Below are positions 29,233-63,494 of a DNA stretch of 64,000 nt, in pieces. The position numbers and the translations under genes were made by a program. Each line of letters opens with the position of its first letter. Within the stretch, counting starts at the first letter, position 1. Under the pieces are notes generated by a model. The model was not told the origin of the DNA. It saw only the letters and a program-made list of their open reading frames with translations, and did not search any database. The DNA comes from Ectocarpus siliculosus (Eukaryota; Sar; Phaeophyceae; Ectocarpales; Ectocarpaceae): contig FN648422.1 of the NCBI GenBank assembly GCA_000310025.1, forward strand, positions 173,416-237,415. The letters run 5' to 3'.

Positions 29233-31455
29233 TCCCAAATGCCTTCACGGACACCTTGTGTGACAGAACACAGAACATGTACCGCACCCTACCAAGGCAC
29301 CACCAACTGAACCCCATCCCAGCTAAACACTGTTGGCTCCCGCGCACCCAAACATAATACCTGCCACGGGTTCTCCGGTGCCCTCTCCCTCTCCGCCGCC
29401 GCCTTCCCGTTACTGCTGCTGTTGCCATTGCTGTTGCCACTGCTGCCGCTGCCGCTGTCAGCCTCTCTCGGCCGTTTCACACCCCGCTCGGCCGAGTTCA
29501 TGCTCATCAGAGCCCCCAGCCGGCCCCAAACCGATTTAAGCACCGGCGTGGCCATCGCGGGCGGCGGACCACCCACCGGGGTCGACGGGGGCTCCGCCGC
29601 TTGCTTGGCTTCCTTCTCTTCCCGCTCCTGCCTAGGTTCCCTGCCCCACCTCCTAGTGTCGGACAACCGCGTAGTGTCCACGGTGAGGCACTCGTACTTG
29701 TCCAGGGGCCACGCCAGGGCCACGCCTGGTGGCAGGAAGAGGGGCGACGGGAGGGGGGGGTGGGTACTCATGTATTGCATTCCTTAACGGTTGGGCCGTT
29801 GACCACGCGTCCTCGAGAAGGAGCGTTGTCGATCACCGACGGCCAAGTCGTTCCTTCCAATTTTGCCAAAGACGGCCCGAAAATGTTTCCCTTAGCCTAC
29901 ATGTATCCTATCGATATCATTCCCCACCTGTTTAGCCCAATTCCTACGGTGGCGAGGGGGGGGGGGGGGGGTCAGGGGTCATGATCTAATCTTTTATCAT
30001 TGTGCCATCATTCGTTGCTGTTTTCGAAACAATCGGTGATGAACCATCGACTAGGAAGTCGGGCGTGGGTGGTGGGTAAAAAAAGGCTGTGCTCTTGAAG
30101 GAGAGGAGAGAGACATGTATCTGGCCAGGAACGAGTTTTGTTCGTTTCGTGCACATGTGTGAATACTGAAACTGTGTCCGTCCGTCCTGTTCGATCCATC
30201 CACCTTACATGACCAGGTATAGGTACAATGTATACACTCGGACGCGGAGTACAGCAGAACCTAGGGACAGCAGTAGTGGTAGGTGCGTCGGTTGCCCTTG
30301 ACAACTTCTTGGAATTGCTTCGCTATCCACAAAGTAAAGGTGTTAGACTGTCGACCTCTAAGATGGGTGAAACATGCACACCACCTGCCGTTAACCGTTA
30401 TGGTCGGAGATCAGCTTGGATCTTGGATCTGCAGCGGCACGCCATCGTTGGCGCTCGTTTACGGCAAGTTTACACGAGGGAGCACAATAAAAAAACAATC
30501 AGCAGGAAGTTCTCGTAGCCACACTCTTTCCTTGTGGGATGCGGGAATACACAGCAGTCAGTGTGGCAACAACAGGTCTTCGCCGGTCGTAACTGCAGTG
30601 CATACTCGGATGCTCAACCAGCGCCTCACCCATGTAGTTGTTGAAGTGCTTGCCGTAATGTGCTGTCACGAACGCGTACCCCCGATCCATGAAGTACACG
30701 TGTAGGTCGCCTGCCCACCCGATGCCCACCTCTTGCAGGCAGATCACAGACCCTTTCGATATCTGCAACGCGCATACGACACACGATACACGCCAAAAGC
30801 AAGGAGGTGGGAAATGTTTGGGTCCCTTGGGTCAAATCATGGCAAAACCTCCTCCCTGCAGGGAAGCTGTGTAGTCTAGCCAGTAACCGAGCAACCGAGC
30901 TGTACAACGGCTGTAAGCGGTGGTGTGTAGTTGGAAAGGGGTCGGGACCCGGTTCCAAGCAACTGACTGCGACAAGATTACGGCGGCGTTGGGGTAGCGC
31001 CTAGCTATCTCGCTGTGTAGCAGCAACTGCACGAGAAGCAAGCAGCACAAGAAACATGCACACAGACAAGATGCATCGACTTCGATGTTCGATGTCGTGG
31101 CTGTGTGCTACATACATGTCTTCTTGTCAAGCCGTGTTGCCGTGTTCCGCCCGCACCCACCTACCTCCGCATCCAGCTTGTGCTTGACCCTCTTCAACCG
31201 GGTGGGAGCATCCAAGTTCCTAGGGCTGCACTGAGGGAACCGGGTCGGCTCCGCCAGGTGGCTGCAGAGGATATTGTACGTCGCCACGCGGAAGTCCATC
31301 TTGTTCGGCCTCTTGGACCAGGAGCACTTGAGCACGAGGTTGGCAGGAGGCGGTGTGGGCCGTACGAGGCGGCTGCTAGTGGGGACGAGGGTACTACTCC
31401 TCGCGAACAGAAGGGAAGAAGCAGCGCGGTGGCCAGTCCAGGCAAGCGATCTCAT
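26811..31455 (-). CDS. EEP-domain nuclease/deadenylase-like protein (CCR4/Angel/nocturnin type), intact copy A
   Basis: Exons on minus: 31455-31165, 30762-30630, 29725-29361, 28587-28329, 28024-27885, 27480-27409 and 26933-26811. They join in phase to 460 residues. Family motifs appear in order: FRVATYNILCSHL (N-terminal Asn motif), SVICLQEVG (catalytic Glu), VALAWPLDKYECL, VLFARLRPK, GTYHMPC, VFAGDFNFNPDSDCYKL (Asp/Asn metal site), YIFHTPGITAV and EEPSDHVILAAEY (C-terminal Asp-His). These are the hallmarks of Mg-dependent exonuclease/deadenylase-type EEP proteins; the exact substrate cannot be read from sequence. Exon 3 adds a basic low-complexity insert (KRPREADSGSG, then Ser/Asn/Gly and Glu/Arg runs). 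The start at 31455 is the first in-frame ATG; it gives a basic, Ser/Arg-rich N-terminus that might be a targeting peptide. Copy B is a pseudogene. Confidence 0.88.
29186..29231 (+). repeat. (GA)n microsatellite in intron 3 of EEP copy A
   Basis: An uninterrupted run of about 23 GA units, preceded by (CA)n. The homologous place in copy B (55002-55056) also carries a GA run, with a length difference and one interruption. Confidence 0.9.
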
Positions 31456-32283: not shown

Positions 32284-32960
32284 CTCTGTTGCATTAACCG
32301 CACCGAAGACGAACGCAGCAGACGCGAAAAAGTGGACGGAACTGGTACTGCAGCAGTTGACAGCAGGGAAAGCTTGACTTCGCAACACAAAGAAGATGCC
32401 TCTCCCTCCCCTCCCTCTCTCTCCCTTCCTTTTCTCCGTCTCAATGTACAATGAAACCGCACCAAACACGAAGGCAAGCAGACGCGAAAAAATAAACGGA
32501 AGTCCTACGACAGCAGTTGACACCAGGGAAAGCTTGACTGCGCACACGAAGAAGATGCCCTCTCCACACCTCTCTCTCTCCTTTCGCTCTCCCTTTCCGT
32601 GTGACTGTCCTCACCCTCTCCCATTCCCTGTATCCGTTTCATACCGTCTCTGCCCACCCCTCCCCCCTTTTTCTCTCGTTATCAATTTTTCCCACCCTAT
32701 ATCTGTCCTTCTCCGTCTCCCTCTTATTATTTCCTGTTCCCCCTCACTTTTTCTCTCCCTTTCTCTGCCTTTCTTTCTCTCTTTCTTTCTCTCCCTTTCT
32801 CTGCCTTTCTTTCTCTCTTTCTTTCTGTCTCTCCGTCTGCCTTTCACCCTGCGTCTCACGCTACCTTTCCCTCGGGCCGTTCATCCCGCCTGCCTCTCCT
32901 ATCCCCCTGGTTATGACGGGTGACTCCCCCATTTGCTTTGTCTCTCACTCTATCTGTCCC
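32284..32960. repeat. 165-bp tandem duplication and pyrimidine-rich tract
   Basis: Bases about 32290-32450 (accgaagacgaacgcagcag ... cagcagttgacagcagggaa ... gaagatgcct) are repeated as 32455-32575. A strongly CT-rich stretch of about 400 bp follows, with tandem ctttctctctttctttctct units at 32755-32830. Peptide frames across it are low complexity and not credible genes. This is the left edge of the 8.6 kb block found only in unit 1. Confidence 0.7.
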
Positions 32961-33060
32961 TCTCAAAAATGGTTACGATTCCCTTCCCAAGGGAGTTGAG
33001 GCTTGAGACATGATGATGCAAACTTGCCCCGCACAGCAAACTTGTTCCCTTCAGCAAAAG

Positions 33061-33603
33061 TCAGACGTGACCACCTGAGATTGGAGGAAAGGGTTGAGGA
33101 ATATTTGGTTGCATCAGTTTGAATGTGTCATAATGTCTTGAGGCACTGGTAAATCGCAAATGCACTTCGTCCGACGTGGAAGAAAGCGCAGGAGGCAAAG
33201 TACTCTGATCGAAGTGGACATTTATTTGTTTTTGAAATATTGCAGATGCAGCAGTTATTTCAGGCTGACCCATGTACGTGAATGGATTTGACGTTTTACT
33301 GATGTATTCGTCGAAAGAAGAATATGTTGTAGGTGGCATGCCGGAAGAATATAGCAGTTCAACACCTACGCCGTTTGATATGTGGAGGTTCTGGTTCATT
33401 CTGTTGTCAGAAATATAATTTACAATTTGATGACGAACTTGCAGATGCAATTCAGGGTCTCCGAGGAAGTGTCGCGCTAGCGCTCTGAACCCACAGGCAC
33501 CGTCACCTATCTCAGGTTGCAATACCCACGTAGGTTGCGGTGGATCACGGGTGTTGGTATTACCTGTGGCAGCTTCTATGAAAGGAGAATAAACGATGTT
33601 TTT
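33061..33603 (-). CDS. OTU cysteine-protease domain frame of the Helentron
   Basis: The frame contains EIGDGACGFRALARHFLGD, the OTU signature Asp-Gly-x-Cys-x-x-Arg with the catalytic Cys. It continues through YMGQPEITAASAIF and VHLRFTSASRHYDTF (candidate catalytic His near SRHYD). No ATG precedes the domain: the open frame runs upstream through NIVYSPFIEAATGNTNTRDP and overlaps the end of the Rep-helicase frame by about 25 bases, in the -1 frame, at an A6 run. Either the domain is made by -1 frameshifting or re-initiation, or a one-base indel (true or a base-calling error) split a single Rep-Hel-OTU protein. The usual role of such OTU domains in transposons is not established. Confidence 0.75.
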   Translation of the reverse strand, partial: KNIVYSPFIEAATGNTNTRDPPQPTWVLQPEIGDGACGFRALARHFLGDPELHLQVRHQIVNYISDNRMNQNLHISNGVGVELLYSSGMPPTTYSSFDEYISKTSNPFTYMGQPEITAASAIFQKQINVHFDQSTLPPALSSTSDEVHLRFTSASRHYDTFKLMQPNIPQPFPPISGGHV

Positions 33604-36600
33604 TCTGTGTAAGGAATGCCGCGAAGAATTTGAGAAGAGGGAAGTAAAATCATAACCGAACTTTTGTTTCTTGCTCGACTTAAGGCGACATACAGTTGAC
33701 CATGATCAAATGCTGAAGATCTTAAGTCTAAACCAACCTTAGATAGGCTCTGCCCCTGGGCTTTGTTAATACTCATTGAGTATGCAGCTCTCAAAGGGTA
33801 TTGAACTCGCGAAAAAGAAATACCTTTTTTCCCGACTTGTGCAGTAAAGTTTATTCTGGGAATGAAGACGATGGGATGAGGGGATTCCTCGGTGAGAAGC
33901 TCAGCTTGAATTACACGGCTGTTGGGGGAGATGGCATGAAGAATGCATTTTTGTCCATTTACCAAGCCCTCGGAGAAGTTAATATTTCTAACCAACATTG
34001 CCAACGTGTTAGACTTCAGTTTGAGATCGTGAGGAGGGACACCTGTCACGTTGAATTGGTTGAGGTGTTGAGGATCAGCGAACGCTGTGTTCGAGTTGGA
34101 TTCATCAGATATCAGTGAATCTGAGCTCAGAAATGATACGAATTGTCCACTCCTTCGGGAGGCTATGTCTTCGTTCGAACAATCGACGGCGTGATTTGTC
34201 GTGGCTAGAATTGCGCGATCGTTCCACTGCTTTGCGTCTTCGTTTATGTTGGGGTAAACGAAATTTATGAGGTCGTCAAAATCAGTGGTACATTGCAGCT
34301 GAAAGTGATCATCAGTATTTGGCATGCAGTGGTTGTTGAGAGGCATCATAGGCTGTTCGTTTACTTGGGAGAGAGGTATTTTGTTCTCTCCAACACGTTG
34401 AACAAAATCAGCATATTGAGGATCTTCTTTGTCCCGCTGTGAAATTGTTAGACGAAGGCGGTCAACGTGATTCCAGAGATGACTTGAAATGAAGGCCACA
34501 TCAACCGTATCTGTTGGACTGCTGCTCCCTTTTGTCACGGGTCCAATTTGACGCCAATCCCCTGAAAAAAGCATAGTTTTCCCACCGAAAAGGTTTTTAT
34601 TTCTGGTTATATCTTGAAGTGTTCTGTTTAAAGCCTCGACGCAATATCTGTGAGTCATGGGTAGCTCATCCCACACGATAAGATCAGAACATCGAATGAG
34701 GTGGGCTCGTTGGGTATTTGTGCTGATGTTGCAAACACACGAAGGAGTGAGGTTTTCGTCCATGGGAAGCTTAAACATGGAATGAGCCGTCCACGCGCCA
34801 GGTAGTTGCAAAGCGGCGATACCTGTTGAAGCGACGATAAGAACTATTTTGCCTTGGCCTCTTAGCCTTGCTGCTATACACTTGATGGTATACGATTTAC
34901 CTGTGCCTGCCCGACTGTCTATCATGTATGCTTTGCCATCTCTACTTGAGACTGATTTCAAAACCTTGGAGTACACGTCGTGCTGTTCAGAAGTTAGTTT
35001 GGGCTCGTGCATGTCTGCATACGCTGTGCAATCCGCGCGAGGGAATGAGTTCTTCATTCGTTGCAGTTCAGTCGTGTTGTGCATTGCAGGTGGGAGATTT
35101 ACTTGTTCGTTTGTTTTCCCATGAAGTTGCAATTTCAAATCTATTTCACGCAAACCCTCTTGAATGGCGTCTTCGTGCCTCATGTGCATCTTGAAGTCCT
35201 CGAGCAAACTGTCCTGAAAATCAGACCATAGCTTGGCTGCAGGGGCGCCATCCAAAATTAGAGTAACAAAGAGAGAACGCAGCTGAGATCCGACCTGAAA
35301 GCCTGATGCCTCTTGCATGCAGATAGAATACTCTTCGTCGCCTGTAATAAGACCTCTTGCTCTGGCAGCGTCATGGTATGTATCATGTAATATTTCACCG
35401 CTGTGTTCGCACGGAACTTTTCGCATGTCTTCGAAAGATCGGCCTGGAATCCGATGAAGCAAAAGTCTCAGGTAGAACAAATCACCTACCGCAGGATCCT
35501 GAAAAGATATCCGACAAACATGAACGGAATTCGCTCTCCTTTTTGATACAATATTGCTGTAGGAATCTAAGAACTTTCCGGGCGGTGGTGCTGAAGGTAA
35601 GGGGGCGTCCTTTTTTGGCTTTGTGACGGTGTACTGTTCGTAGTAGTCAAGAAGGGTAAGACTGTCAAAACACTCATCAGCAGGTCTTGCGAAGTAGTTC
35701 ATGAGAGGAGAATGAGTTGCTTCAGTGATTTGCAGACGCTGTTCTTGGGTAGCCGAAGCCGGGAAGGTGACGTATTGTTCGCCTTCGAGATGGGCATATA
35801 TCTTTGTCACCGCGGGATATCTGTCGTACATGTTAAAACCTAGAAGTCTCCACATTGCTTCGGACGCGCTTAGATATCGTGTTTTCCTATACACTTCTAT
35901 CTCGTCTGTGATCCCGTCTATTCTACAGCGTATAACGTCCTGGGATTTATGCGTATATTTGAATAAGTATTTTATGCAAGCTGTAGCAGTTACGATGTCG
36001 ATGTGTATGTGGCAATCAAACCGCATTAAGAGCCATGGATTGTAACTGGCTACCCACTCGTCACCTATTGGAACGTCCTTGTACACGCCGTTAACCTTAG
36101 CTCGCACAGTAGGTTTTTCGCTGTCGGGTCTGTTTACTCTTCTGTATTCTACTCTTCCTGTTTTGTCGTTAATTGAGGCAGATGCTCTGAAAGGTTGCGG
36201 AAAGTGTTTGTTGCATCGTTTGCGGTTGGTTTCTCTGTCTTCCTGCATACAGGGGGCGTCAACGTTGGTTGCACCACATGGTCTGTGTATCATATACTTT
36301 AACACCTTTTCTCTCAGTACACCATTAGCAATGGTTTCATCTGGAATTCCTGCCCAAACCCATTTGTCCATTTCATGGAGCTTGTCGGGACCGTCACCTT
36401 TGAAGGTGAAAAAACAATGAGCGTGCGGATAACCTCTCTTTTGCCATTCTATTACACATAAGTGACTGTCATAAGGACCGAAAACCTTCCCGCTTTTTAT
36501 TTCTTTCATAATTTCCTTCAGCTTGATTTTGAAAACTCTGGCACAAAGGTCTGGACGATCGTATGCGGTCTGGCCCGGCTTCAAATTAAGTCTAATTTCT

Positions 36601-38265
36601 GGCCAATCGGCATTCATTGTGATTGTGATGAACAGGTGAGGACGCCCTCGTCTATTTACAATCGCAAGCGCATCCTCTGTATCTGATTTTTTTTTGGCAA
36701 GAGAACCGTGAAACGTGGCAGGGAGAATTTTGCCGGGATTGTCAGCGTTTGAAGAACGACGAATATCACGATCTGTANNNNNNNNNNNNNNNNNNNNNNN
36801 NNNNNNNNNNNNNNNNNNNNNNNNNNNNNNNNNNNNNNNNNNNNNNNNNNNNNNNNNNNNNNNNNNNNNNNNNNNNNGAACGACGAATATCACGATTTGT
36901 AGCTAATCTTTGCTGCAAAGGGCTATGTTCGACGAAATATAGTTGGTTTTCCTCAAGTCTGCTCAGGGAATCGCAAGCCCATTCCTGAGCAATCAAACTG
37001 TTCGTCTTAAAAATTTCTTCTGATAGAATGCGCTGCCGGCAGTAGAACGGGAAGGGCACATGGTCAGTGTTGTTGAGGTTCATAGTTTTAGATTTGAAAG
37101 GTGGGTTCTCTTTGGAGTTGCCCTTGCTCCACCCTGCTTCCCCATGCAAGAACAAAAGCGGGAACTGAAGTGTCTCATAGGCAGGACTCCACAGGGGCAT
37201 AAAACGCGGTTTGTCATCTGGACTGTGTAAGGGATAGGTTACAACCGCACGCGGACCTTGACTCTCCTGGCCGGACGTATACAATAAAGCTGCAATTTCA
37301 GGAGCAGATGGAGTTTCACCCAAAACTGGACCGTCATTAAAGCGGCTCACGTTGTCAAATTCAATTCGAGGTGGTGGTAAGTCGGGGTCATGAAGGGTAG
37401 AATCGGACCTCACAAAGTCTATAGCCGACCTATACTCACGTGCCCATTTAATATTCGTATGAATATGAGTCCTCAAGGTATTTGCTACATCGTGTCTCAA
37501 ACTGAGAGAGGAGGCCTTTTGCGCAAATTCGCTGTCAAAAATGTAAAATCTACTTGAATTTGAAACGTTCAATTCGGGGTACGTGAGAGATAGATCAAAC
37601 AGACGGTGGTATGCTTTTCCGTGAATTGTAAGGATGCTTTTGCCTCTGGGTTGTGTCCACGTTCGTTTTTCAATACCTCCTGCACCTAACGCTGTAAAAC
37701 TAAACATGCCATTGTATCTTCTCTGATTATTTCTGAAATGAGAGGTAGAAAAAAGTTGCATAAGGTCACCAGGAATCGTACGCAGGCGAGGAATTGCATA
37801 TTTCCCCTTATTGCAACAATTTAAACTCTCTTCCTTCCAAAGCTGTGACGTACAATGGGGACAAATGGGATTATTTTCATGGGTTAACTCCGGATTTGCA
37901 AATTCAAAAGCATGTAAGGGATAAGAAATAGAAGGCGAATCAAAGTCCTGAACACCAAACCGAGGGCTACCTTCTATTTCACTGTCTTCTTCGTTGTCAC
38001 TAAGGTGAACGTTCTCTGGGGTTCGCGGTGTTCTGTTACGCATTTGGTTGAAATGTTGCTGAACAATGTTCAAATCGGATTGGCCACGAGCTTGAGATCT
38101 AGCTCGTCGGTCTCTCAAAATTTGGGCACGTCTGGCTCTTCTCTCTGAAGCGTGGAGTTGTGGTCGGGTAGTTAAATCAGTTTCACGCAAAGCACGACGC
38201 TCTCTTAGAATTTGCGCACGTTGAGCTCTTCTTTCTTTGGCTTGTGTTTGTCTTCGGGACGACAT
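33576..38265 (-). CDS. Helitron Rep/Pif1-like helicase, interrupted by an artefactual gap
   Basis: From MSSRRQTQAKERRAQRAQIL at 38265 to stop at 33576. N-terminal basic Arg-rich repeats; a CPHC..CC zinc motif (near residue 140); then the Helitron-like N-terminal domain. Rep domain: FITITMNADWPEI (motif 1), GYPHAHCFFTF (HUH metal-binding motif) and CIKYLFKYTHK (two-Tyr motif). Helicase: SRAGTGKSYTI (Walker A), DLIVWDELPM (Walker B), LFSGDWRQIGPV, and SINKAQGQSLSKVGLDL with YVALSRARN (SF1 motifs V-VI). The 100-N gap at 36778-36877 is flanked by a 24-bp repeat. Counting the overlap once keeps the frame and gives about 1521 residues with no internal stop, so the protein looks intact. No apurinic-endonuclease domain was seen. 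Confidence 0.95.
36754..36901. other. Assembly gap flanked by a 24-bp overlap
   Basis: Bases 36754-36777 and 36878-36901 are the same 24-bp sequence (gaacgacgaatatcacgatY then tgta) with one C/T mismatch, on either side of 100 N. The reading frame is continuous if one copy and the N run are dropped, so nothing is probably missing. Confidence 0.88.
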
Positions 38266-38348
38266 GAGGGAAATAATTCAGGTTGTTTAGGTGGCAATTG
38301 CCAATTAAGAAAATTCACGAGAAAGCCAACAAAGGGCTTCGCACCTCC

Positions 38349-39699
38349 CTAGAAGTCCTTGAAGCTGTCCTTCACGGTAGCTGAAGGCTTGGCGTACTCT
38401 TCTTCGTGGGTTGTGCCGAGCTCCTTGTAGGTCTTCTTGGTGTCCAGGATGCCAGAAACGGACTGTTCCCACAGGCGCTTGGAGCACCACAGGTGGAGGG
38501 GCGGGTCCTCCCACTCCTTCACGATCACGTCTCCGGCCTTGATTTTGCCGGTGCAGGCCTTATTGATGTCGTTGCCGGTACCACGAGTTGACATGAAGCA
38601 GGTCTTCTGAAAAATCGGCAAGCAGAAGAACCGGGAACAAAATGAAAGAACACACGAACGCATGTCATATCAATCAGACGGATTGGGGCAGGAAAAGCAC
38701 AGGAGAAGCGGGTTCATGAAGTGGCTCTCGATCCAAACATTTCACCAGTTAGACATTCACTAAATGGGAGGATACACTGAAAATATACAGATATAGCGGC
38801 CACGTCGTCAGCCCCACAGAGATATCCAAATGCGATAAAAATTTCTCCAAAAATAGACTCACACCCACAACCGGTTGGCCTTTCGCCACCTCCGTGCCGT
38901 TCTTGAACCGACTGTTGTCGGAGGTCTTCGCACCGCAGCACAGGTTAAAGCACGCGTGCACGTTGTTCCACACTGTGTCCAAAAAGAATCGGTAGACACG
39001 CAGAAATGATTCGCGGGCAATTGTCGGTGCGCGTTGTTTGTTCCACATTTTGTGCAAAAATAATGGACACGAAGAAATGATGCGTGGACACTTTTCAATA
39101 TTTTAGTTACTACTCAAAATGCATGCAAGGTCTTCACGTCTAATTCATGAAAGCACGAACGGACAATGGAGGTCTGCTGACACTCCACGTCTAATTCATG
39201 AAAGCACGAACGGATAATGGAGGTCTGCTGACAACCCATGCATGTATAGGCTATCTGTCGTGTTTCGCGAAGCAAAATCAAACCAACGCTATGTACGTGC
39301 AACGAACGCTACGCTCAATGAAAACTCACCGGTATAGCCGCGATCGTCCTTCTCCTCAGTAGGCTCGCCAAGCGTGGGCGTGCCTCCGACGGGAGTGTTG
39401 CACACCAAGCAGTACTTGGGGTTGTCCTTGCTGGGCTGCAGGATGGTGGTCGTCACCTGGCAGCTGTTGCCGTCACCATACACACGCTGGTCGCACGAGC
39501 CGAACTCACCCCGGCCGTTCTTTTTTTTAACGACCTTGATGTGTCCTTCGCAAGACGGAGACGGGCAAGGCCAGTCGGGGTTGCCTGGCTCAATGATCGC
39601 CCGAGGCTTCACCGAGCTTGCGTTCGTCCTTGACTGATCGGACTTGCGCTTGTTCGGTGAAGCCTTGGACAGTTCAGACAGAGAAAGACGTCCCTTCAT
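38349..39699 (-). CDS. Cys-rich putative zinc-binding protein 1
   Basis: Exons on minus: 39699-39330, 38972-38863 and 38606-38349. Phases close to 245 residues. I do not recognise a named family. Cys positions suggest several zinc ribbons: WPCPSPSCEGH, SCDQRVYGDGNSC, YCLVCNTPVGG, ACFNLCCGAK, KTCFMSTRG, ACTGKIKAGD and LWCSKRLW. The N-terminus is Lys/Arg/Ser-rich (SKASPNKRKSDQSRT), as in nuclear proteins. Donors are GTGAGT in both introns; acceptors are ACACAG and TTTTTCAG. The gene ends within 90 bp of the Helentron Rep start and lies in a block absent from the other unit, so it may be cargo of a mobile element. A second gene of similar size, three-exon layout and Cys content is at 58573-61036, also inside an insertion. 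Confidence 0.72.
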
Positions 39700-40674
39700 G
39701 ATCGAGCGTTTTTTTTGGTATGTGCGGGGGGCGGTGCGGTATGCTATTTTGCCGGGCTGTTTCACTGACGTGGAGCAATGACCCGATCGAATCTAACATT
39801 CACAGTTTCACTGACGTGGAGCAATGACCCAATCGAATCTTACATTCACAGTGACGAATCTAACATTCGCGAAGTACTGTAAGTTAACCTATCTTTCGCC
39901 GCTCCAGAGGATGGACACAGGATGCCGTCTCAAACAGTCAATCTTCCATACATATGACACTGATTGAAATATTGAAATTATGCCCCACGTGAGGGACTGC
40001 TGTGACATGCCACACTTGCGATGGTGAAAATGACACCCAATCGAATCTAACATTCACAGTTTCACTGACGTGGAGCAATGACCCAATCGAATCTTACATT
40101 CACAGTGACGAATCTAACATTCGCGAAGTAAGTTAACCTATCTTTCGCCGCTCCAGAGGATGGACACAGCATGCCGTCTCAAACAGTCAATCTTCCATAC
40201 ATATGACACTGATTGAAATATTGAAATTATGCCCCACGTGAGGGACTGTGACATGCCACACTTGCGATGGTGAAAATGACACCGTATCCAACACTCGTCG
40301 AACTTCGCTGCCTCAGAGGATCTTCATGTGTCACTTTCTGATGTCAAGCATCGCTAATGCCAATGTCCGGGACTGTGAGATGGTGCTGCACTCCGCCGGT
40401 TAAAACCAACACTACTTTAGGCAGATGACACTTGCTTGTAGACCGACGTTTCGCGTGCCTGAACACCGTGCCGTGATGGAAAAACTTTGGAGAGCACGCC
40501 CAGCGCTTTCAAGGCCTTTCAACTTGTAAGGGCGCGTAGAGGTGAAGGGTTCCTAATACGTACTGTCGTACTGTTTTTAGAGTAGGCAAAGTTTCGCCGC
40601 TTCGCTCTCGTGAGCCCGGTTCTGCTCTCTCGTGAGCCCTCAGCCTAAAACGTCATTCTAGGTACCCATAATTA
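39700..40674. repeat. 254-bp tandem duplication in otherwise featureless sequence
   Basis: Bases 39782-40035 are repeated as 40036-40289 with few differences; both contain cgaatctaacattcacagtt, cgccgctccagaggatggac and ttgaaattatgccccacgtg. Within each unit, ctgacgtggagcaatgaccc also occurs twice around 39763-39840. From 40290 to 40674 I see nothing recognisable. The block that is specific to unit 1 ends at 40674. Confidence 0.85.
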
Positions 40675-40858
40675 ACCACTGCTGTGTTCCGGACAGCGCA
40701 GTACATTGATATGCATACGCTGCGTTAATTCTGTACTGCAACCCCGTTCGCTGGCATCCCTGAGTAGGGTTGTCACCCGGTCAATCTGAGTGGAACCGGG
40801 TACCCGGTGAGGTCTGCGGGGGTGCACCCTTGACCGAGCACGGAGGGCAGTATGGGGG

Positions 40859-42381
40859 ATGCTGTATGCCGATGATGCTGGCGTCGTATCGAGGTCTGCA
40901 GAAGGACTGACGAGAATGATGACCATCACCGTTGAGGTGTTCGAGGAGTTCGGGCTAACGGTGTCGGAGAAGACGGAGACGCTCCTGATGCGCGCGAAGG
41001 ACAAGTCGACTACAACATCACAGCCCCCCCCGCCTTCACCACTGACCATCGAAGCCGCGGGACAGAAATACGCCCAGACGACCGAGTTCCGGTACCTCGG
41101 TGGCCTCGTCAACGAACATGGCGACCTCACCCGGGAGATCAGCTACAGGAGCAGAGGAGCGTGGGCGTGCCTCAGGCGATATGGCCAGGAGCTCTTCGAC
41201 AGACCGAAAGCGCCATTCCGACTCAAGATCCGCCTCCTCCTGGCGGAGGCGATGGAGGCACTGCTGTACGGCTGCATGACATGGTCACCACTCAGCGGCC
41301 ACTATCAGACGCTGCGGTCGACACACCACCGACTGCTCCTTCGAGTTATCGGGTACAAGCGCAAGAAAGACACCTACCGGCAGCTCTCGTACGCCCAGAC
41401 GCTGAAGAGGGTCGAATGCCAGAGCGTTGAAGCCACGATCCGACAACGACGCCTACTGTTCGCGGGAGCACTGGCAAGGCAGCCGGACGGGCGACTCCCG
41501 AAACGGCTGATGCTCGGCGAGCTGGCGGGGGGGGAGAAGCCACGTAGGGGGGGACAGGAACAGAACTGGCCGAAGTGTGTGCTCGACGACCTGAAGGCAT
41601 TCGGGGCCGACCACGGATCTACGAAAACCGATCCATGTTGTCTCGGAATTCCCGTACCGAAAGACACGGCACCGAAGTTAAGGTGGACGGAAGCCGCGAA
41701 GGTGGAGGGGGGAGTACCCTGGCATGCGGTGGTGCTGCAGGGAGCTGAGAGGTTCATGACCTCCTGGCACGAGAAGGAAGAAGAGGCCAGCCGACAACGA
41801 GCGCTCAAACGAAACCACAAGCCAACAACCAATGGGGCGGGGGGGGGGCAGGAGACGGACGAGACGGCGAGGGAAGAAAGCAAACGAGAAGAGACGGACC
41901 GAGTGGCACGATACGTGCCGGATTGAATTTCTTTTAGCCAATCCCCCCCCCCCCAACGCTGAACAACGCAGAACGGAGGAAGAGGTATACCAGCCGTAGG
42001 AGAGAGGAAGAGGAGGATAGACACACATGTCCATGTGGCAAATCGGAGGAGAGTAGACCCCACATAGTTGGGGAGTGTGAGTTGTACAGGAAGGAAAGAG
42101 AGGATCTCGAGGAGGAAATGAGACAGAGAGGGTGTGACATGGACAAGTTTGGTAAATTAGACAACAGCGAAAGAACGATCGCGATAATTGGGGATAGATG
42201 GTGGGCACAAGAGGCCCTAGAGGACGGGGATAAGATGTGCAAGAAATTTTTATGGAGTTTGTGGCAGAAACGTAAAGAGCTCCCAAATGTTGGGGGGGTC
42301 TCTAGTAGGGGTAGGAACGGTGCTCCGTCTCGAAAGGGACGCGTGGTCAATGGTCAAATGACTACGCCAAGCAACAAATGA
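40859..42381 (+). pseudogene. LINE (non-LTR retrotransposon) reverse-transcriptase fragment
   Basis: Open frame 40859-41926 starts MLYADDAGVVSRSAEGLTRM, the RT catalytic YADD motif, and continues with GLTVSEKTETLLM, FRYLGGLVNEHGD and LLYGCMTWSPLSGHY, typical of LINE RT C-terminal regions. Everything N-terminal of YADD is missing. After the stop and a poly-C run (41942-41956), another frame carries CPCGKSEESRPHIVGECELY (about 42030-42089), the C-terminal zinc knuckle of such elements, followed by a charged tail to 42381. The copy is 5'-truncated and frame-broken, so it is not active. It lies 73 bp inside the left TIR. Confidence 0.85.
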
Positions 42382-55055: not shown

Positions 55056-55864
55056 GATCCCAAATGCCTTCACGGACACCTTGTGTGACAGAACACAGAA
55101 CATGTACCGCACCCTACCAAGGCACCACCAACTGAAACCCATCCCAGCTAAACACTGTTGGCTCCCGCGCACCCAAACGTAATACCTCCCACGGGTTCTC
55201 CGGTGCCCTCTCCCTCTCCGCCGCCGCCTTCCCGTTACTGCTGCTGTTGCCATTGCTGTTGCCACTGCTGCCGCTGCCGCTGCCGCTGTCAGCCTCTCCC
55301 GGCCGTTTCACACCCCGCTCGGCCGAGTTCATGTTCACCACAGCCCCCAACCGGCCCCAAACCGATAGGAAGTCGGGCGTGGGTGGTGGGTAAAAAAAGG
55401 CTCTGCTCTTAAAGGAGAGGAGAGAGACATGTATCTGGCCAGGAACGAGTTTTGTTCGTTTCGTGCACATGTGTGAATACTGAAACTGTGTCCGTCCGTC
55501 CTGTTCGATCCATCCACCTTACATGACCAGGTATAGGTACAATGTATACACTCGGACGCGGAGTACAGCAGAACCTAGGGACAGCAGTAGTGGTAGGTGC
55601 GTCGGTTGCCCTTGACAACTTCTTGGAATTGCTTACGCTAACCACACAGTAAAGGTGTTAGACTGTCGACCTCTAAGATGGTTGAAACATGCACACCACC
55701 TGCCGTTAACCGCTATGGTCGGAGATTAGCTTGGATCTTGGATCTGCAGCGGCACGCCATCGTTGGCGCTCGTTTCCGGCAAGTTTACACGAGGGAGCAC
55801 AATTCCCCAATTGCAAATTGGGGTTCCAGCCAGCGCAATCCCGAAAAAAGCAATAAAGAAATCC

Positions 55865-56100
55865 CGTCCGAAATTTCGATACTTTTATCGAGTTAAAAAA
55901 ACTGACAAAAATCCATACTTTAATCAAGTAAAAAAACTGATCAAAATCGACTATGCAATCAAGTCGAAAAACTGATCGAGATTCGTGCTGTATTCAAGTG
56001 AAACGTGTGATGGAGACCGCCACATTTAACAAGTGAAAGCATGTGATCACATCCGATAGTTAAATCAAGTCAGAAATGTCACACTTTTAAATTACTTGGT
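55865..56100 (+). repeat. Subterminal array of about six 36-45 bp degenerate repeats
   Basis: Successive units end in (at)caagt followed by aaaaaactgatcaaaat-like or gaaacgtgtgat-like sequence: near 55893, 55927, 55961, 55997, 56031 and 56067. They lie 60-300 bp inside the 5' end of the insertion, a place where replication or transposase proteins often bind repeated sites; that role is inference. Confidence 0.65.
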
Positions 56101-56138
56101 AGAGTCATATGGAATTGGAATCGTTCATTTATGTCAAG

Positions 56139-56810
56139 CGTTCTAAACTCACTGTTTTGGTCTGCGCCAACATGCACAAAAGCGTCATTTCTCGCGTTTT
56201 CCCTCTTTTCGGACAAAACAACAGCAGCACCGGTCCCAGACACAACATTCCACACTACTGCTGCGTGTGTCCACTGTTATGTGCTCCCACAAGATGTCGT
56301 GCGTCCTACAATGACTGCTGTCTCCCACCGTGTAGCGTGCAATCTCGCTGCAACACAGCATACTGCTGTATGTAGGCGTGGGTCTGGATGAAAGATTGTC
56401 GCGATGATGGCAGCGACCCCAGCGCCTCCGCCACCAGACAACAAACAACATTGCACACTAATCTACAGCTGTGTGCTCCCACACTGCTGTGTCCTCACAC
56501 ACTGACTGCTGTGTGCTGCCACACACTGGGGTGTCGACACGCTGGTGGCAGCAAGAAGCGAAACAACACCAACAACGGCCTTCATGTGTGTCACGCGTTC
56601 TAAACTCACCGTTTTGGTCTGCGCCAACATGCACAAAAAAAGCGTCATTTCTCGCGTTTTCCCTCTTTTCGGACAAAACAACAGCACCACCGGTCCCATA
56701 CACAGCATTCCACACTACTGCTGTGTGTGTCCACTGTTATGTGCTTTGCTGTGCTTTGGGGTGTCGACACGCTGGTGTCAGCAAGGAGCGAAACAACACC
56801 AACCAAGATA
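56139..56810 (+). repeat. Direct repeats inside the 5.9 kb insertion
   Basis: The stretch cgttctaaactcactgtttt ... tgtccactgttatgtgct (56139-56280) recurs at 56598-56745. The stretch ggggtgtcgacacgctggtg ... gcgaaacaacaccaac recurs at 56527 and 56758. Short runs of actgctgtgtgctnccacac fill 56460-56530. Confidence 0.85.
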
Positions 56811-56939
56811 TGAGGGGGCACGCGAACAAAGAAAGCGTTACGCAAATTACGTCCGATCGTGTCTGTATGTCACCGCCCAGCACTTCCATATCACGACATA
56901 TTATAGTGTGCCGCGTCGACCGTGTCTCTTTCCCTTGCA

Positions 56940-58156
56940 ATGCCCCCTAAGAAGAAAGTCAGGACAATTTGTGGCAAGAACAAGGAAAGAACCCGCAACT
57001 TCTTCAGCGCCGAAAGTAGTAAGGACGAGAAAACCGGTAAGGTTCCTCACCACCACCGTCTCCCAACGGATCTTATTCTTTTGGAGCACAGGCAACCTTT
57101 GCTGGATCACCATGCTAAAGTTGTCCGGGACATTGAATTTCAAAGACGACAAGCCTTCAAGGCCAAGCGCGATAGGAAGAGGGCGGATGACCGTCCTCTA
57201 CGAGAAAGAGCGAGGGCTAAAGCGAAGGCTTCAAAAGCAGCAGCATCGCTAGAAAAGAGACAAGAGGCCACGGAAGCATGGATATGGAAACAATAAGCCG
57301 ATCGAGAAATCACGGCGGAGATTGCGGCAGAAGCTCGCGCAGCACACGATGCCAGCGGCGAGCCCGCAGCCGCAGCACGAAAAACACCTTCCGCGATGGC
57401 TCAAAAGGCCGCCCACAGAGCGGCGACTGGTGCAGCGGAATACGCAAGGACGGAAGCAAAAGCGCAGAGACAAGCAGCACTACGGGAAAAAACAAAACAA
57501 CGAAGACAACAACGACGACGGCAGCAGCAACAGCAGCAGCATCATCAGCGGCTAGAAAAGCTCGTTCGAGACGAAACCAACAGCAGAATCGACAAGCCGC
57601 CGAGGCAAAAGCGCAATCAGCAGCGGCTACAGCTCGTTGGAGACAGAACCAGCAGCTTAATCGAGAAGCGGCGGAAGCAAAGGAGAAAGACAAACAGGAG
57701 AATAGACGAGCAAAAGCGAGATCAGCGGCGGCAACAGCTCTTTCGAGACACATCAAGAAGCAGAACCGACAAGTCGCGGAGGCAAAAGCGAAGTCGGCAG
57801 CGGCCTCCGGTCGTTCCAAAAAAGCCCAGCAAGAGATCAGACAAGCAAGGGCGAAAGAAGCGGAGGCAAAAGCGACGTCGGCAGCTACCTCTGCTCGTTC
57901 CACAAAAGCCCAGCAGGATATCAGACAAGCAAGAGAAAAATCAGCGGCTACTACAGCTCGTTCGCAACACAACCATCAGCAGAATCAACAAGCCACGGAA
58001 GCAAAAGCGACGTCGGCAGCGGCTAGGGCTCGATCCAGGGAGAAAGCCAGGCAGGAACAGCCCATTTCCAACACGTTCGTCTATCAAGTACTCCGGAGCA
58101 GCTGGAACGTTCATTCAATGCGTTTAGCATCGATGATCTGTAGTACTTCTACTTGA
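56940..58156 (+). pseudogene. Ala/Lys/Gln-rich coiled-coil repeat protein frame, interrupted
   Basis: The frame from ATG 56940 starts MPPKKKVRTICGKNKERT (nuclear-localisation-like PPKKKVR) and runs 118 codons to a TAA at 57294. The same frame then continues as REITAEIAAEARAAHDAS and AEYARTEAKAQRQAALREK. At about 57530, in a CAG-rich run, the repeat pattern moves to another frame: RNQQQNRQAAEAKAQSAAAT and four to five further units of about 27 residues with the consensus (Q)N/IRQAxEAKAxSAAxxARS. Strongly charged, heptad-like and almost certainly helical. I do not recognise a family. The stop and frame change mean a decayed gene or unrecognised introns. Confidence 0.55.
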
Positions 58157-58572
58157 CGCATCAATGTCTGCGTGCTCCCTTCGTCCCAGGCACTCGTACG
58201 CGCCCATGGTCACCAACCCACCTGTAATAGCTTTCGACCACCCTGAAGGAATCTTGGACGGGCAAGATCACCCCCCGTTGACGGAAAACGTTCTCGGCAC
58301 TTTGATGCTGTTCAAGTCTATTGGTGACTTCCATAAGCATATGGCCGACAACATACACAGTTTTTTTTTTTTCTCCCATACCGCAATCATCACCTTCAAT
58401 ACCATCACCAAACAACCCGGCCACGTCACCGATTGACCACGTAAAACAGCTGTCCGTAACTATCTCTTTTTCAGATTCCATGTTCAACCTCCCGTATCCC
58501 CCCGCTCTCATTTCTTCTCCCCTGCCTACGCCCGAATCTCTGCTTCCCTCTCTCACCGGCTCCTTCTCAACC

Positions 58573-61036
58573 ATGGCTCCTACGCTCAACCAGCAACAGA
58601 ATAAATTCTTCGAGACTCTTTCCGAATGCGACCGAGCCGCCCTCAACGGCATGAATCCTGCTTCGAAAAAACAAATGATCGAAAGGATGATCGCCTCTCA
58701 CAAGAGGGTCGCGGACAAAGTGTCGGCCTCATCATCATCCGACGTTTACGTCCGAACACCGTCCTTCGCCATCAGAGGCGACACCGACTCCTGCATCCTC
58801 TGCAGCGGGGCAAGCGCGGACTTCCATCAATCACACTTTAGTTTCATGTGAGTGAGTGAGTTACTTCTTTCACCGACAGTAATAAGCTGAATGTCGTTGA
58901 TGTGCTCGCATTTTTTGTGTGGTTGAAAAATCGCATCACACGCGCTGCGTTGAACGCGAGTTGCATGCATGCATGCTGCATGGATGGTCACACCAAATCA
59001 ACGTATGCTTCAACTAACTGTGCCTGCCACACATTACGAAAGATAGACAGACACATCCAACCACCATCATCACAGTCCTATAAGAGGGTTCAACTAAATC
59101 GATACGCTCGCGCCTTCGAATGGCGAAAATATTCCGTGGTACGCATGCAGCTGTTCACGTTCACGTCGCATGTATGCGCACGTCGGCTACATCCAGCTCG
59201 CGCACATTGATTGGAAGTAAGTTGTCTACTCCTCCTGTCTCCTCGTTCGTGTACTCCCACTGCTTGACGCTGACTGACTGACTGACTGATGACCTCGATT
59301 TACTCTCACTCCCGCCTTGCCAGCACGTTCTAACTACACTGCCTACCTAATCATCATCGTTCGCGAAGCAATCCACGTGTCGTATTTCCTTCTTCTGTTC
59401 TTTCAACACCTTCTACGTCAGCCGTCAGCCGATCGCTTCCATATCCCACTCTTGGCATACAACTCTTTCGGCTCCATCGAATCCGTTATCGTTGAAACCA
59501 AACATCCACATATATAGCGAGTATTTCAGATGGATCCAACCTAAGGGGGGAGGAGTCTGAAATTGGTGTTTATTGGAGTTGATGAGAAGTGAGCATTTAT
59601 TATTATGTGCCAAAGAGGATGTCTGCGTGCGTATAGAAGAGGAGGCATGCGCACCGAGAGAAGGCAGCTGCTCGCAGGACATTCCGTTTGCGCCCGATGA
59701 CGTTGAAGCATCATCAGTGCTGGAGCACAGGGACTGCTAAACGTACGAGTGGACAACACTGCCAGCTACTCCTTTTTAAGACTTTTTGTTCCGGGGAGTT
59801 AGGGTTTTTTTTTTTCCCTTCCACCCCCCCCTGAAATTTTTTTTTCAAATAAAAGGGGGGGGGGGGGGGGGGGCGATAACTAAGGTATGTGTACCGGGAG
59901 GATACATATATAGGGGACATGTCGATATATGATTGCTATTATTCCACGGGGAACTGGGTTATGAGGGTCCGATTGGGGAGGTGGATGTCAATGGTATGGA
60001 GTACCATTGGGGGTCTCGGTGTACTGAGACGGCATTTTGTTAGGGCCTGCCAGTTGACATGGAAAGGGAACTTGGACTCTGGAGGAGAGAGGGAAGCGAC
60101 CGGTGTCGTCCCCTCGTTATTGGCCAGAGAGTTACCTTCCAGACTTCGTGGAAAATAATAATAAAAATGACACTTCGGAAAAATACAATAAATGTGTATT
60201 CGCCGCATCCTGTTTCGCCGTCTCCTAAACGTATTGCTGTAATTTTTGCTGCAGAAAAAGTTTTTCGCCCCAAATAATTTTGTAGGATTCATCCATACAT
60301 CAACATACATCAAGCAGAGCGCCCGTTGGGATCCACCATCTCTAACATTCATCATAACCTGTCCCTGCTCCTTCAGGTGCCCCAAACCATGCTACCTCTT
60401 TGTGGCTCAAACGGCCAAGGAAGGGCAACGTCCCGAGAAGGCTCCCCTCACGTGCGAATCATGCCAACTGCCCATGGCCACGCACACCGCCTACTGGCCG
60501 CGAAACGACGAAGGCGGCAACCGCCGCTATAATCACGTCAACGCTACGGAATGCATCCCAAACGATGCCGATAAGGGCAAGTGCGGCATGTGCAACGCAG
60601 ACGACGTAGACCGTGTCACCATCAACGCAGTCGGCCGCGAGGCTGAAGACCAAAAGGTGTGTCATAAGTCGCATGTTTCATTCGTCTTCCAAACTACTCA
60701 GTATGCCCTCCTACTAATAATATACTACCAATAAATGTGTACTTGTACTACTGTACCAACCTATTCTCTGCACCGACTACCATTCAACCCTCGTCTCCTC
60801 CGGCATAATAGGTGGACCAAACATCATTATCACCTCGCGTTGTTCGACCACCCACAATTAATTGTGCCATCATTCATTCTTTACCGATTACAACATGACA
60901 ACAGGTGATCTGCCACCCGTGCTTCCTGCTCCACCGCACGGACAACCTGCAGTCGTGCCAGCCCGCCGCCATACAGAAACGGGAGAGCAAGAAGCTCCAC
61001 ACGTCGCCGGCAAAGCGCGCTAGGTCGTCTTGCTGA
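58573..61036 (+). CDS. Cys-rich putative zinc-binding protein 2
   Basis: Exons 58573-58847, 60377-60656 and 60905-61036 join in phase to 228 residues, ending at TGA 61034-61036. The start MAPTLNQQQNKFFETLSECD has a strong ACCATGG context. Cys pairs: CILCSGA, CPKPCYLF, TCESCQLPM, a lone C in TECIPN, KCGMCNADD and VICHPCFLLHRTDNLQSC; then a basic tail KRESKKLHTSPAKRAR. The spacing suggests two or three zinc ribbons, but no named family. Donor GTGAGTGAG, acceptors cttcag and caacag. Intact splice sites and frame argue for recent function. The gene lies wholly inside the 5.9 kb insertion, so it is mobile-element cargo. Compare the 245-residue Cys-rich gene at 38349-39699. Confidence 0.7.
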
Positions 61037-61716
61037 CGACTCATCTGTTGCTATTTTTGCATTTCGACTAGTAGGATATTTTTTGCTCTTTTTTTGTTTT
61101 TTAGCACCACCTATGCCACGCCATACGGCCTTTCTTATTATCGGTTCGGATATTGCTAGTTTTTTTTTACACTCCGCGCCACGCGTGCGTCCGTGCGTGC
61201 GCGCTTTTTCCCCGGTTTGTTTACCAGGCCGTCTTATATAGCTGCCTCCCCTTCTTTACGGTGTGGCCATTCCGTTGTAGTATGTACGTTTCCCTTATTA
61301 GCTGTTGTTATCGTCTTCCTTTACGATTGATTCTGATTTTAGGGGTTCTTTTCATGCAACTCGGTTTTTCCATTTGCCTATTTTTCTTTTTGTCGCATTT
61401 TTGCGGTTGGTTTGGAGATATTATCTTCTTTTTTTTCGCACCACGCTTGCGTGCGTGCGTTCCTTTTTCCAGGTTTTATTCGCGGGCTTCCCGCAATCAA
61501 TATGTCCTTACTTTACTTCTTCTCCTTCGACGTGGTGGATGAATGAATGAATGGTTTATTTTTCATTATACCACACTCTACTACAATGTACTGCTGTTGT
61601 TACTCCTGTATGCAGTGCCGGCGTTGTGGTTCGAATAGACTACGAGAACTTCATTCAGCAAAAAAATGGGTGAAAAAATCAATTGGGAAAGCAGCCGTGG
61701 GCACACGGCAATCTAT
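61037..61716. other. 3' part of the 5.9 kb insertion, no gene seen
   Basis: T-rich sequence with small duplications (gcgtgcgtccgtgcgtgcgcg at 61185 and gcttgcgtgcgtgcgttcct at 61446). It probably includes the 3' UTR of the Cys-rich gene and ends with the hairpin at 61694-61709. Confidence 0.5.
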
Positions 61717-63180
61717 AAAAAAACAATCAGCAGGAAGTTCTCGTAGCCACACTCTTTCCTTGTGGGATGCGGGAACACACAGCAGTCAGTGTGGCAACAA
61801 CAGGTCTTCGCCGGTCGTGACTGCAGTGCATACTCGGATGCCCAACCAGCGCCTCACCCGTGTAGTTGTTGAAGTGCATGCCGTAATGCGCCGTCACGAA
61901 CGCGTACCCCCGGGCCATGAAGTACACGTGTAGGTCGCCTGCCCACTGGATGCCCACCTCTTGCAGGCATATCACAGACCCTTTCGATATCTGCAACGCG
62001 CACACGACACACGATACACGCCAAAAGCAAGGAGGTGGGAAATGTTTGGGTCCCTTGGGTCAAATCATGGCAAAATCTCCTCCCTGCAGGGAAGCTGTGT
62101 CGAGCTGTACATCGGCTGTAAGCGGTGGTGTGCAGTTGGAAAGGGGTCGGGACCCGGTTCCAAGCAACTGACTGCGACAAGATTACGGCGGCGTTGGGGT
62201 AGCGCCTGGCTATCTCGCTGTGTAGCAGCAACTGCACGAGAAGCAAGCAGCACAAGAAACATGCACACAGACAAGATGCATCGACTTCGATGTTCGATGT
62301 CGTGGCTCTGTGCTACATATACATGAACAGCAGCTAGCTGCTGTCAAGCCGTGTTGCCGTGTTCCGCCCGCACCCGCCTACCTCCGCATCCAGCTTGTGC
62401 TTGACCCTCTTCAACCGGGTGGGAGCATCCAAGTTCCTAGGGCTGCACTGAGGGAACCAGGTCGGCTCCGCCAGGTGGCTGCAGAGGATATTGTACGTCG
62501 CCACGCGGAAGTCCATCTTGTTCGGCCTCTTGGACCAGGAGCACTTGAGCACGAGGTTGGCAGGAGGCGGTGTGGGCCGCACGACAGTTACATTTTACGA
62601 TCCGTGCGAAGGGATCCTCCCGCACCCCGCACGAGGCGGCTGCAGTGGGGACGAAGGTACAGTACTACTCCTCGCGAACAGAAGGGAAGAAGCAGCGCGG
62701 TGGCCAGTCCAGGCAAGCGATCTCATGCACAGCAGAAGAAGGAGGAGAGCGTGGCGGTGGCACCCGGGGTTCGCCACGTTTCCGGCGACAACTGGGCTCG
62801 CCGCACGAGAGCTCTCCAGTTCTGATACGCCAAGGCCAGAAAAGTTTGCTCGGCTGGGCGAAGGTTTCAATGGAAGTTTGGGAGGCATTTTTATGTATGA
62901 TTTAAAGTATGAGGAGCCCTGCCCACCCACACCCCCTGGTTGCTCCCCGCTGGGCAGGACATCCCTCATCGGCAGACCGTTGCTGCCAATGGCGCGATTC
63001 CCGCAGCAGAGAGGACTCGTCTCGGCCCTTGCGGTGGGCCTTGCGATGACCACGAGGGTGGCTTCTTTCAGGTGAATTGTGAATACAGCAGTTGGTTCAG
63101 AACGTACGTGAGGCCCTCTCTGTCATCGCATCTCATTGACTGTTACTTTGTACACGCTGACAACATACAAACCAACACTG

Positions 63181-63181
<1 letters not shown>

Positions 63182-63219
<38 letters not shown>
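63182..63219 (+). repeat. (CTG)n microsatellite
   Basis: About 12 CTG/CTA units in unit 2. The homologous place in unit 1 (31889-31908) has about six, so the tract differs in length between the duplicated copies. Confidence 0.9.
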
Positions 63220-63494
63220 AATGCTTCACTTAGGCGTCGTTCGTGCGGCACGGCCTGACAATCATGGGGCGTTGCTTACTGTGGGAATAGTTTAAACTGT
63301 CAGTCACCCTTGTGGGTTGTCGGTGGAGTTGTGGTGTCACCGGCATGCAACGGCAGCGTCATGTTGTTCAACACAGCGGTGTCATATCTAGACCGCTGTC
63401 TGAGCACGGACACTATAGTGGAGGTGTACACACACGACAACAGCGTTCTCGTCGGCCGCTCGTTTGTGATGTGCATTACGCCTCCATCATGTGT

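Follow-up and report, generated by a model that had tools for sequence, protein, structure and literature searches.

A non-autonomous Helitron2-type element with a conserved cysteine-rich gene in Ectocarpus siliculosus

Introduction

How does a mobile element that encodes no transposase move, and where does the intact-looking, three-exon gene inside it come from? A 64,000-nucleotide stretch of Ectocarpus siliculosus DNA (the window; positions 173,416 to 237,415 of contig FN648422.1, GenBank assembly GCA_000310025.1) raises both questions. Towards its right end lies a 5.9-kb element with a coiled-coil repeat frame and a three-exon cysteine-rich (Cys-rich) gene. The original prediction took both for cargo unlike known Helitron proteins, and proposed a gene-capturing Helentron derivative mobilised by a Rep-encoding element at 33-38 kb of the same window. 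We find that the element is very probably an internal-deletion derivative of a Helitron2-type transposon, non-autonomous and moved by RepHel in trans, and that the Cys-rich gene recurs, open and with the same introns, in a second transposon family. Genome searches were made in a 189-Mb assembly (G000), in which the window lies on contig C64.

Results

Borders, empty site and terminal structures

The features of the element are collected in Table 1. The 5.9-kb insertion has no counterpart in copy A of a local duplication, the one paralogous empty site. The left flanks (30052-30488 in copy A, 55366-55803 beside the element) are 97.9% identical and the right flanks (30487-32059 and 61715-63371) are 89.8% identical over the whole stretch. 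Because the two flank matches overlap by 2 bp and the copy A junction reads through with 0 bases gained or lost, copy A reads as a clean empty site; the deletion scar that the original prediction had named as counting against it was not seen. Because a single T is common to both sides, the border is ambiguous by 1 bp (55803-61715 or 55804-61716) and there is no target duplication. The precise borders first proposed are thus borne out by the junction. Insertion strictly between an A and a T was dropped, since a single empty site cannot place the shared T.

Table 1. Features of the element and of its empty site (positions in the window)
Feature	Position	Strand	Basis
Whole non-autonomous Helitron2-type element	55803..61716	+	Copy A empty site; sister copies share borders
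5' asymmetric terminal inverted repeat, TTCCCCAATTG	55803..55813	+	Family end comparison
5' terminal hairpin, 8-bp stem and 3-nt loop	55805..55823	+	Folding
Tandem repeats of a 35-bp unit (2.7 copies), close inside the 5' end	55879..55975	+	Repeat search
Subterminal direct repeats of ~165 bp (56124-56285, 56581-56745), reduplicated in several sister copies	56124..56745	+	Copy comparison
Broken coiled-coil frame, RepHel N-terminus remnant	56940..58127	+	Same region in sister L016, then DUF6570
Stretch homologous to RepHel N-terminal sequence	58197..58364	+	Protein comparison with C207 and C475
Cys-rich gene, exon 1	58573..58847	+	Open frame, splice borders, homolog
Cys-rich gene, exon 2	60377..60656	+	Open frame, splice borders, homolog
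Cys-rich gene, exon 3, with stop codon	60905..61036	+	Open frame, homolog
3' asymmetric inverted repeat (26 bp before the 3' end), one base off the family form CAATTGGGGAA	61680..61690	+	Family end comparison
3' hairpin, GCCGTG-GGCA-CACGGC	61694..61709	+	Folding; 43 genomic 3'-end sites
Empty site (copy A of the local duplication; not part of the element)	30487..30488		Flank alignment

The predicted terminal folds held up against 200 shuffled sequences each. For the 5' palindrome the z-score is -2.7, and 3 of the 200 shuffles are equally stable. The 3' hairpin (6-bp stem, 4-nt loop, 7 nt from the end) reaches z -3.8, with 0 of 200 equally stable. The inverted motifs expected at the two ends, TTCCCCAATTG and CAATTGGG(G)AA, are both present, but the 3' arm of the window copy is imperfect: the family form is an 11-bp inverted repeat (TTCCCCAATTG / CAATTGGGGAA), of which the window copy retains 10 of 11 bp. 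The ten bases of the 3' arm covered by our search pattern are perfect in 30 of 43 genomic 3' ends. The 35-bp tandem repeats inside the 5' end are possible binding sites for a transposition protein.

These features are those of Helitron2. The available text of PMC3627910 describes a 5' T and asymmetric inverted repeats of 8-15 bp. There the 5' repeat forms part of a hairpin and lies 0-2 bp from the terminus; the 3' repeat lies ~20-30 bp from the other terminus and is followed directly by a hairpin. One Helitron2 family inserts after TTTT without duplication, as published for some families and not all (PMC3627910). The repeats described here are 11 bp long; the 5' repeat lies within the published distance of its end and is part of the hairpin, and the 3' repeat, at 26 bp, stands directly upstream of the hairpin. 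A 5' T goes with the lack of a target duplication (one empty site, 12 copies), the target T not being placeable to one side. Canonical Helitrons (Helitron1) have 5' TC, 3' CTRR and no 5' hairpin; the element instead ends in AATCTAT and has a 5' hairpin. Together with the recurrence of the ends, this bears out the predicted assignment to the rolling-circle Helitron2/Helentron type, as a non-autonomous member.

Recurrence of the ends

The original prediction proposed a genome search for the ends and held that their failure to recur would speak against it. They do recur. A 36-bp pattern for the 3' end finds 43 genome sites (≤3 mismatches), against 0 for the reversed pattern. A 37-bp pattern for the 5' end finds 9, against 0 reversed; this search is indel-free and therefore misses the window's own copy. 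The matches stop near the element borders. A 201-bp 5'-border query gave 40 scored matches among 55 candidates. Setting aside the window and the empty-site flank leaves 38, of which 32 begin at query positions 101-105 (border 104), 1 at 95 and 5 inside the element. The 3'-border query gave 42 matches, again with two from the window and the empty-site flank; among the remaining 40, 30 stop at positions 115-120 (border 117), 8 at 122-128 and 2 earlier.

Twelve two-ended copies of 959 to 5914 bp were read: the window copy and 11 sisters (L011-L021) chosen from paired end matches. L011 has a decayed 5' end, the border of which was set by extension; L022 and L023, with a 3' end only, are outside the 12. 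The last base is T in all 12 copies and the start is TT in 10. Adjacent direct repeats measure 0-3 bp, with no constant length.

Some copies have other interiors. Sister L021 (5.7 kb; C340:50300-56320) has window-type ends and a 233-bp stretch in common with the window, and otherwise differs; frames on its opposite strand give helix-turn-helix matches, PF13384 barely above the cut-off and a Tc5-type match barely below it. On C25 (L029/L030, C25:2283900-2297330) a family element is interrupted by sequence with a DDE_Tnp_4 transposase frame. Both interiors may be nested insertions at least as readily as captured cargo. Pairs of 5' and 3' ends 13-18 kb apart on C8, C464 and C25 were considered as autonomous partners and rejected (no RepHel match by tblastn); they are left out of the count of 12. 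C464 contains a second 5' end, and its inner 6.7 kb may be a further two-ended copy. The C8 pairing, which has only 147 bp and 43 bp in common with the element, may consist of two unrelated ends.

A second family and diverged relatives

The Cys-rich gene and the coiled-coil frame, used as queries, brought up C23, C475 and C10. Their ends are related to those of the window's family (family A) but distinct. In this second family (family B) the 5' end is like TTCCCCAATTGTCAAATTGGGG and the 3' end has CAATTGGGGAAGCAG, a different hairpin, and then AATCTAT or AATCTGT; a pattern for the family B 3' end finds 6 genome sites, against 0 reversed. One stem pair of the hairpin changes from C-G in family A to T-A in family B. 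This compensatory change, a single event, would favour a working hairpin; the stem is broken in some copies, such as C23 and C17:4388586. A third version of the ends, on C19 and accompanied by a coil fragment, is more diverged, by 3 edits on the 5' side and 7 on the 3' side. By eye, family B also has short repeats inside its 5' end. At C51:20193-22893, two family B 3' ends lie ~2.66 kb apart in like orientation and are perhaps tandem copies.

Remnants of RepHel

The coiled-coil frame predicted in the window is present, and it is broken, by an in-frame stop at 57294-57296 and by a frame change judged by eye against sister L016. In L016, which has family A ends, the coil is followed by ~430 codons of RepHel N-terminus in two open stretches and then by the 3' end. 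The RepHel part of L016 is 64% identical to C10 (family B) over 231 residues and 45% identical to C63 over 291 residues, and scores 42.4 bits for DUF6570 against a cut-off of 24.3. Downstream of the coil in the window itself, the stretch 58197-58364 matches the RepHel N-terminal sequence of C207 (36% over 56 residues, E-value 4e-12) and the family B copy C475 (55% over 33 residues, 71% over 21 residues). Because L016 runs from the coil into DUF6570 and the window stretch matches C207 RepHel, the coiled-coil frame is, judging from these protein comparisons, a broken remnant of a RepHel N-terminus and not foreign cargo; the part of the original prediction that called it un-Helitron-like does not stand.

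Other copies retain other parts. Sister L011 has a DUF6570-side fragment (72% to C10) immediately before exons 2 and 3 of the Cys-rich gene. At E 1e-4, the coil protein matches 6 of the 12 family A copies (the window, L011, L012, L013, L015 and L016) with no match in L014 and L017-L021, and the DUF6570-side fragment is found in 2 of the 12 (L011 and L016). All 6 coil matches in the genome lie inside elements with such ends. In assigning the coil and Cys-rich matches to elements, C17 was placed by its 3' end only, and the placement of C19, and of L011 on its 5' side, relied on diverged ends. A Pfam scan of nine RepHel-type frames left two, from L011 and C10, without a match; it found DUF6570 and Helitron_like_N in C63, both of these and PIF1 in C207, DUF6570 in C10, and a Helitron_like_N fragment in C23. 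C207 and C63 are a pair, 97.3% identical over 6 kb.

The Cys-rich gene

The three-exon gene looks intact, as first described: its frame is open over 228 residues and its two introns are GT-AG, in phases 2 and 0. A family B homolog on C23 encodes 225 residues with no internal stop and has both introns at the same positions and in the same phases. The two proteins are 42% identical over 213 residues (E 2e-60), and 12 cysteines, mostly in close pairs, are kept. Over 223 codons the sequences differ at 91 first, 80 second and 136 third positions, so that the third position differs most. The proportions of replacement and silent differences (pN 0.39, pS 0.69) give a ratio of replacement to silent substitution rates (dN/dS) of about 0.29, with silent sites near saturation.

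All 12 genome matches to the gene (the search gives a lower bound) lie inside elements with such ends: 3 in the window, 2 each in L011 and C23, and one each in L012, L013, L014, L022 and C475, with L022 assigned by its 3' end only. Because the gene was found in the genome only inside such elements, it would seem to belong to the transposons, and an inherited accessory gene fits better than a fresh capture. The claim of captured foreign cargo is accordingly not sustained by the genome matches or by the open homolog in the diverged family B.

The protein has no match in Pfam and none in viral contigs; a profile search against PDB sequences gave nothing better than E 0.22, and NCBIfam gave one sub-threshold chance match. 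Structure prediction for exon 2 alone, from three sequences, returned a mean predicted local distance difference test score (pLDDT) of 39 and no usable model. The product would most likely be an accessory protein of the transposon; zinc binding and a nuclear location are guesses prompted by its paired cysteines and basic tail. The C23 homolog has a first intron of 417 bp, whereas intron 1 of the window gene (58848-60376) measures 1529 bp. A piece of 88 bp from the window intron is found again at C17 (L023), so a nested repeat may lie within it.

Upstream of the C63 RepHel (C63 ~199944-201280; L043/L045) there is a further Cys-rich frame, likewise with a basic tail. We do not claim it as a homolog of the window protein: hhalign gives P 0.018, and C207 is without that stretch.

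Search for the mobilising enzyme

At 33061-38265 of the window lies a Rep/PIF1-helicase element; Pfam identifies an OTU-type frame in it, and a stretch of N occurs near 36778-36877. We found no 3' end (≤6 edits) and no 5' end (≤4 edits) of the 5.9-kb element in 32,000-42,000, and neither end at four related Rep loci. The Rep belongs to a different lineage. C26 and C24, which have in common a Rep stretch 98.9% identical between them, both stop at a hairpin that is, by eye, a different one. Since neither end was found there and the Rep is of another lineage, the 33-38 kb element appears a poor candidate for the mobiliser. The comparison of ends that the original prediction proposed thus revealed no terminal sequence in common, and mobilisation by that element is not upheld. 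A spliced-looking Cys-rich gene (exons by eye) at 38348-39765 adjoins the Rep element and may or may not be part of it; hhalign finds it unrelated to the Cys-rich gene described above.

Genomic loci of Rep, Helitron_like_N, helicase and DUF6570 were checked for nearby element ends (43 on the 3' side, 39 on the 5' side), using 35 of 61, 47 of 70, 7 of 8 and 13 of 13 entries of the four locus lists; the entries dropped are further pieces of the same loci. Within 25 kb of an end lie the window's own Rep (at 19-25 kb), DUF6570 fragments in L011 and L016, a C17 fragment (a weak Helitron_like_N match 9.7 kb outside a 5' end) and fragments on C79. The C79 fragments, broken pieces of Rep of the 33-38 kb lineage, are on the opposite strand to a perfect 3' end and 7.6-14.6 kb away from it; C79:123000-142300 (L046/L047) has a 3' end and no 5' end of either family. 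C79 thus shows no element, yet leaves a small opening for the 33-38 kb lineage as mobiliser, because an opposite orientation of RepHel is reported for some Helitron2 elements (PMC3627910, in the text available). In protein sequence, the RepHel lineage closest to the element is the one represented by C23/C10 (fragments) and C207/C63.

Discussion

The element is very probably a Helitron2-type transposon that arose by internal deletion. Its parent would have had the order 5' hairpin and asymmetric terminal inverted repeat (ATIR), RepHel, three-exon Cys-rich gene, 3' ATIR, 3' hairpin, AATCTAT, and its RepHel would have comprised a coiled-coil N-terminus, a Cys motif, DUF6570, Helitron_like_N and a PIF1-type helicase. 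This order is pieced together from different deletion derivatives, with the helicase part from C207/C63 only. The window copy would have lost DUF6570 and the downstream RepHel, keeping the broken N-terminus, the whole Cys-rich gene and both ends. A RepHel made elsewhere would nick the 5' end, strand-displacement copying would proceed until it stopped at the 3' hairpin, and the copy would insert beside a T without target duplication.

Several observations weigh against this account. A full-length RepHel element with these ends was not found, in searches that give lower bounds, and the assembly has gaps, one of them beside C63; an intact partner has been lost, lies in a gap, or escaped the searches. 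Ends of C207 and C63 were not found either (C207 stops at its contig end and C63 runs into N), so that their link to the element ends rests on protein homology. The DUF6570-side frame of L011 has no Pfam match in the domain scan. Exon 2 of the window and of L011 differ by 7 replacement and 3 silent changes, which shows no constraint at that depth. Only the window, among the 12 family A copies, has all three exons, which likewise weighs against constraint on the gene.

If a host Cys-rich gene had instead been captured recently by a Helentron moved by the 33-38 kb Rep element, one would understand how an open, spliced gene comes to sit beside a broken coil frame; Helentron gene capture is published (PMC4067079, in the text available), and the C79 fragments lie near a perfect family 3' end. 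We consider this improbable. Not one of the 12 genome matches to the gene falls outside such elements, and an open homolog with the same introns is present in the diverged family B; as for the mobiliser, neither end occurs in 32,000-42,000 or at the four related Rep loci, and the C79 fragments are on the opposite strand with no 5' end found in C79:123000-142300. The cysteine-rich gene might also be under selection in its own right, its product recruiting or regulating RepHel in trans for both families. The open frames and splice sites in the window and in C23, kept at a dN/dS of about 0.29 although both copies have lost most of RepHel, would then be explained. Against it, the other family A copies spread without the three exons, the comparison with L011 shows no constraint, and the dN/dS may stem from selection in the lost autonomous parents; we regard such selection as rather unlikely. 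With the same reserve we raise the possibility that the protein represents a new class of Helitron accessory protein, selected on RepHel-less elements and helping them to obtain RepHel in trans. It might bind the subterminal tandem repeats, in a role akin to that of Fanzor for CRe-1.

Terminal hairpins and the absence of a target duplication would also fit another kind of hairpin-ended element, IS200/605-like (PMC3627910, as far as its available text goes) or Crypton-like, and we think this extremely improbable: family members carry RepHel N-terminal remnants and asymmetric inverted repeats of the Helitron2 type, and the frames scanned contain no tyrosine or serine recombinase. The DDE transposase on C25 and the weak helix-turn-helix matches in L021 read as probable nested insertions. 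That copy A is no true empty site, having lost the element by precise deletion, is hardly credible. A single paralogous empty site is on hand, which leaves room for the idea, but its junction lacks extra or missing bases and sister copies elsewhere have identical borders.

As a Helitron2-type derivative, the element resembles the non-autonomous CRe-1/2/3 of Chlamydomonas reinhardtii, as described in the available text of PMC3627910, in its end repeats, two hairpins and 5' T, and in that non-autonomous members carry a spliced accessory gene (Fanzor1 there, the Cys-rich gene here). Unlike theirs, the accessory gene here is without a Pfam, PDB-sequence or viral-contig match, and the copies are not flanked by the duplications of ~7-19 bp often found beside CRe-1,2,3 (PMC3627910). 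With Helentrons, HINE and DINE-1 it has in common subterminal inverted repeats, end palindromes, a T-rich or TT target, deletion derivatives and tandem repeats (PMC4067079, available text). It may differ from Helentrons in the narrow sense, which have an AP endonuclease domain fused to RepHel: no such domain was found in the related RepHel frames scanned (C207/C63, both incomplete copies). From the mite Helentron families it differs in that its 3' repeat lies 26 bp from the end and not ~38-60 bp (PMC4067079). The FoHeli elements of Fusarium oxysporum also have Helitron2-like ends, with a hairpin at each end in two of the five subgroups (FoHeli1 and FoHeli2), and the same ambiguity of the start, TC or TTC; RepHel copies with matching ends are known there, unlike here, where none was found (PMC5148889, available text). 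The Ectocarpus genome contains 13 Helitron families, and some of its giant DNA transposon families carry only genes without transposase homology (PMC12477816); the accessible part of that source yielded no Ectocarpus Helitron end sequences for comparison. Nor did the literature on Helitrons and accessory genes, in a search that did not cover subscription papers, yield a description of such a Cys-rich gene.

The window thus contains a known kind of element, and this identification is well supported: a Helitron2-type family with an exact empty site and recurring ends, whose derivatives retain different parts of the parent, be it the RepHel N-terminus, the Cys-rich gene, or little beyond the ends. 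The uncommon part is the Cys-rich gene, a conserved accessory gene that the protein libraries used here do not recognise. If its product does act in transposition, the family would offer a natural system for learning what rolling-circle transposition needs besides RepHel.

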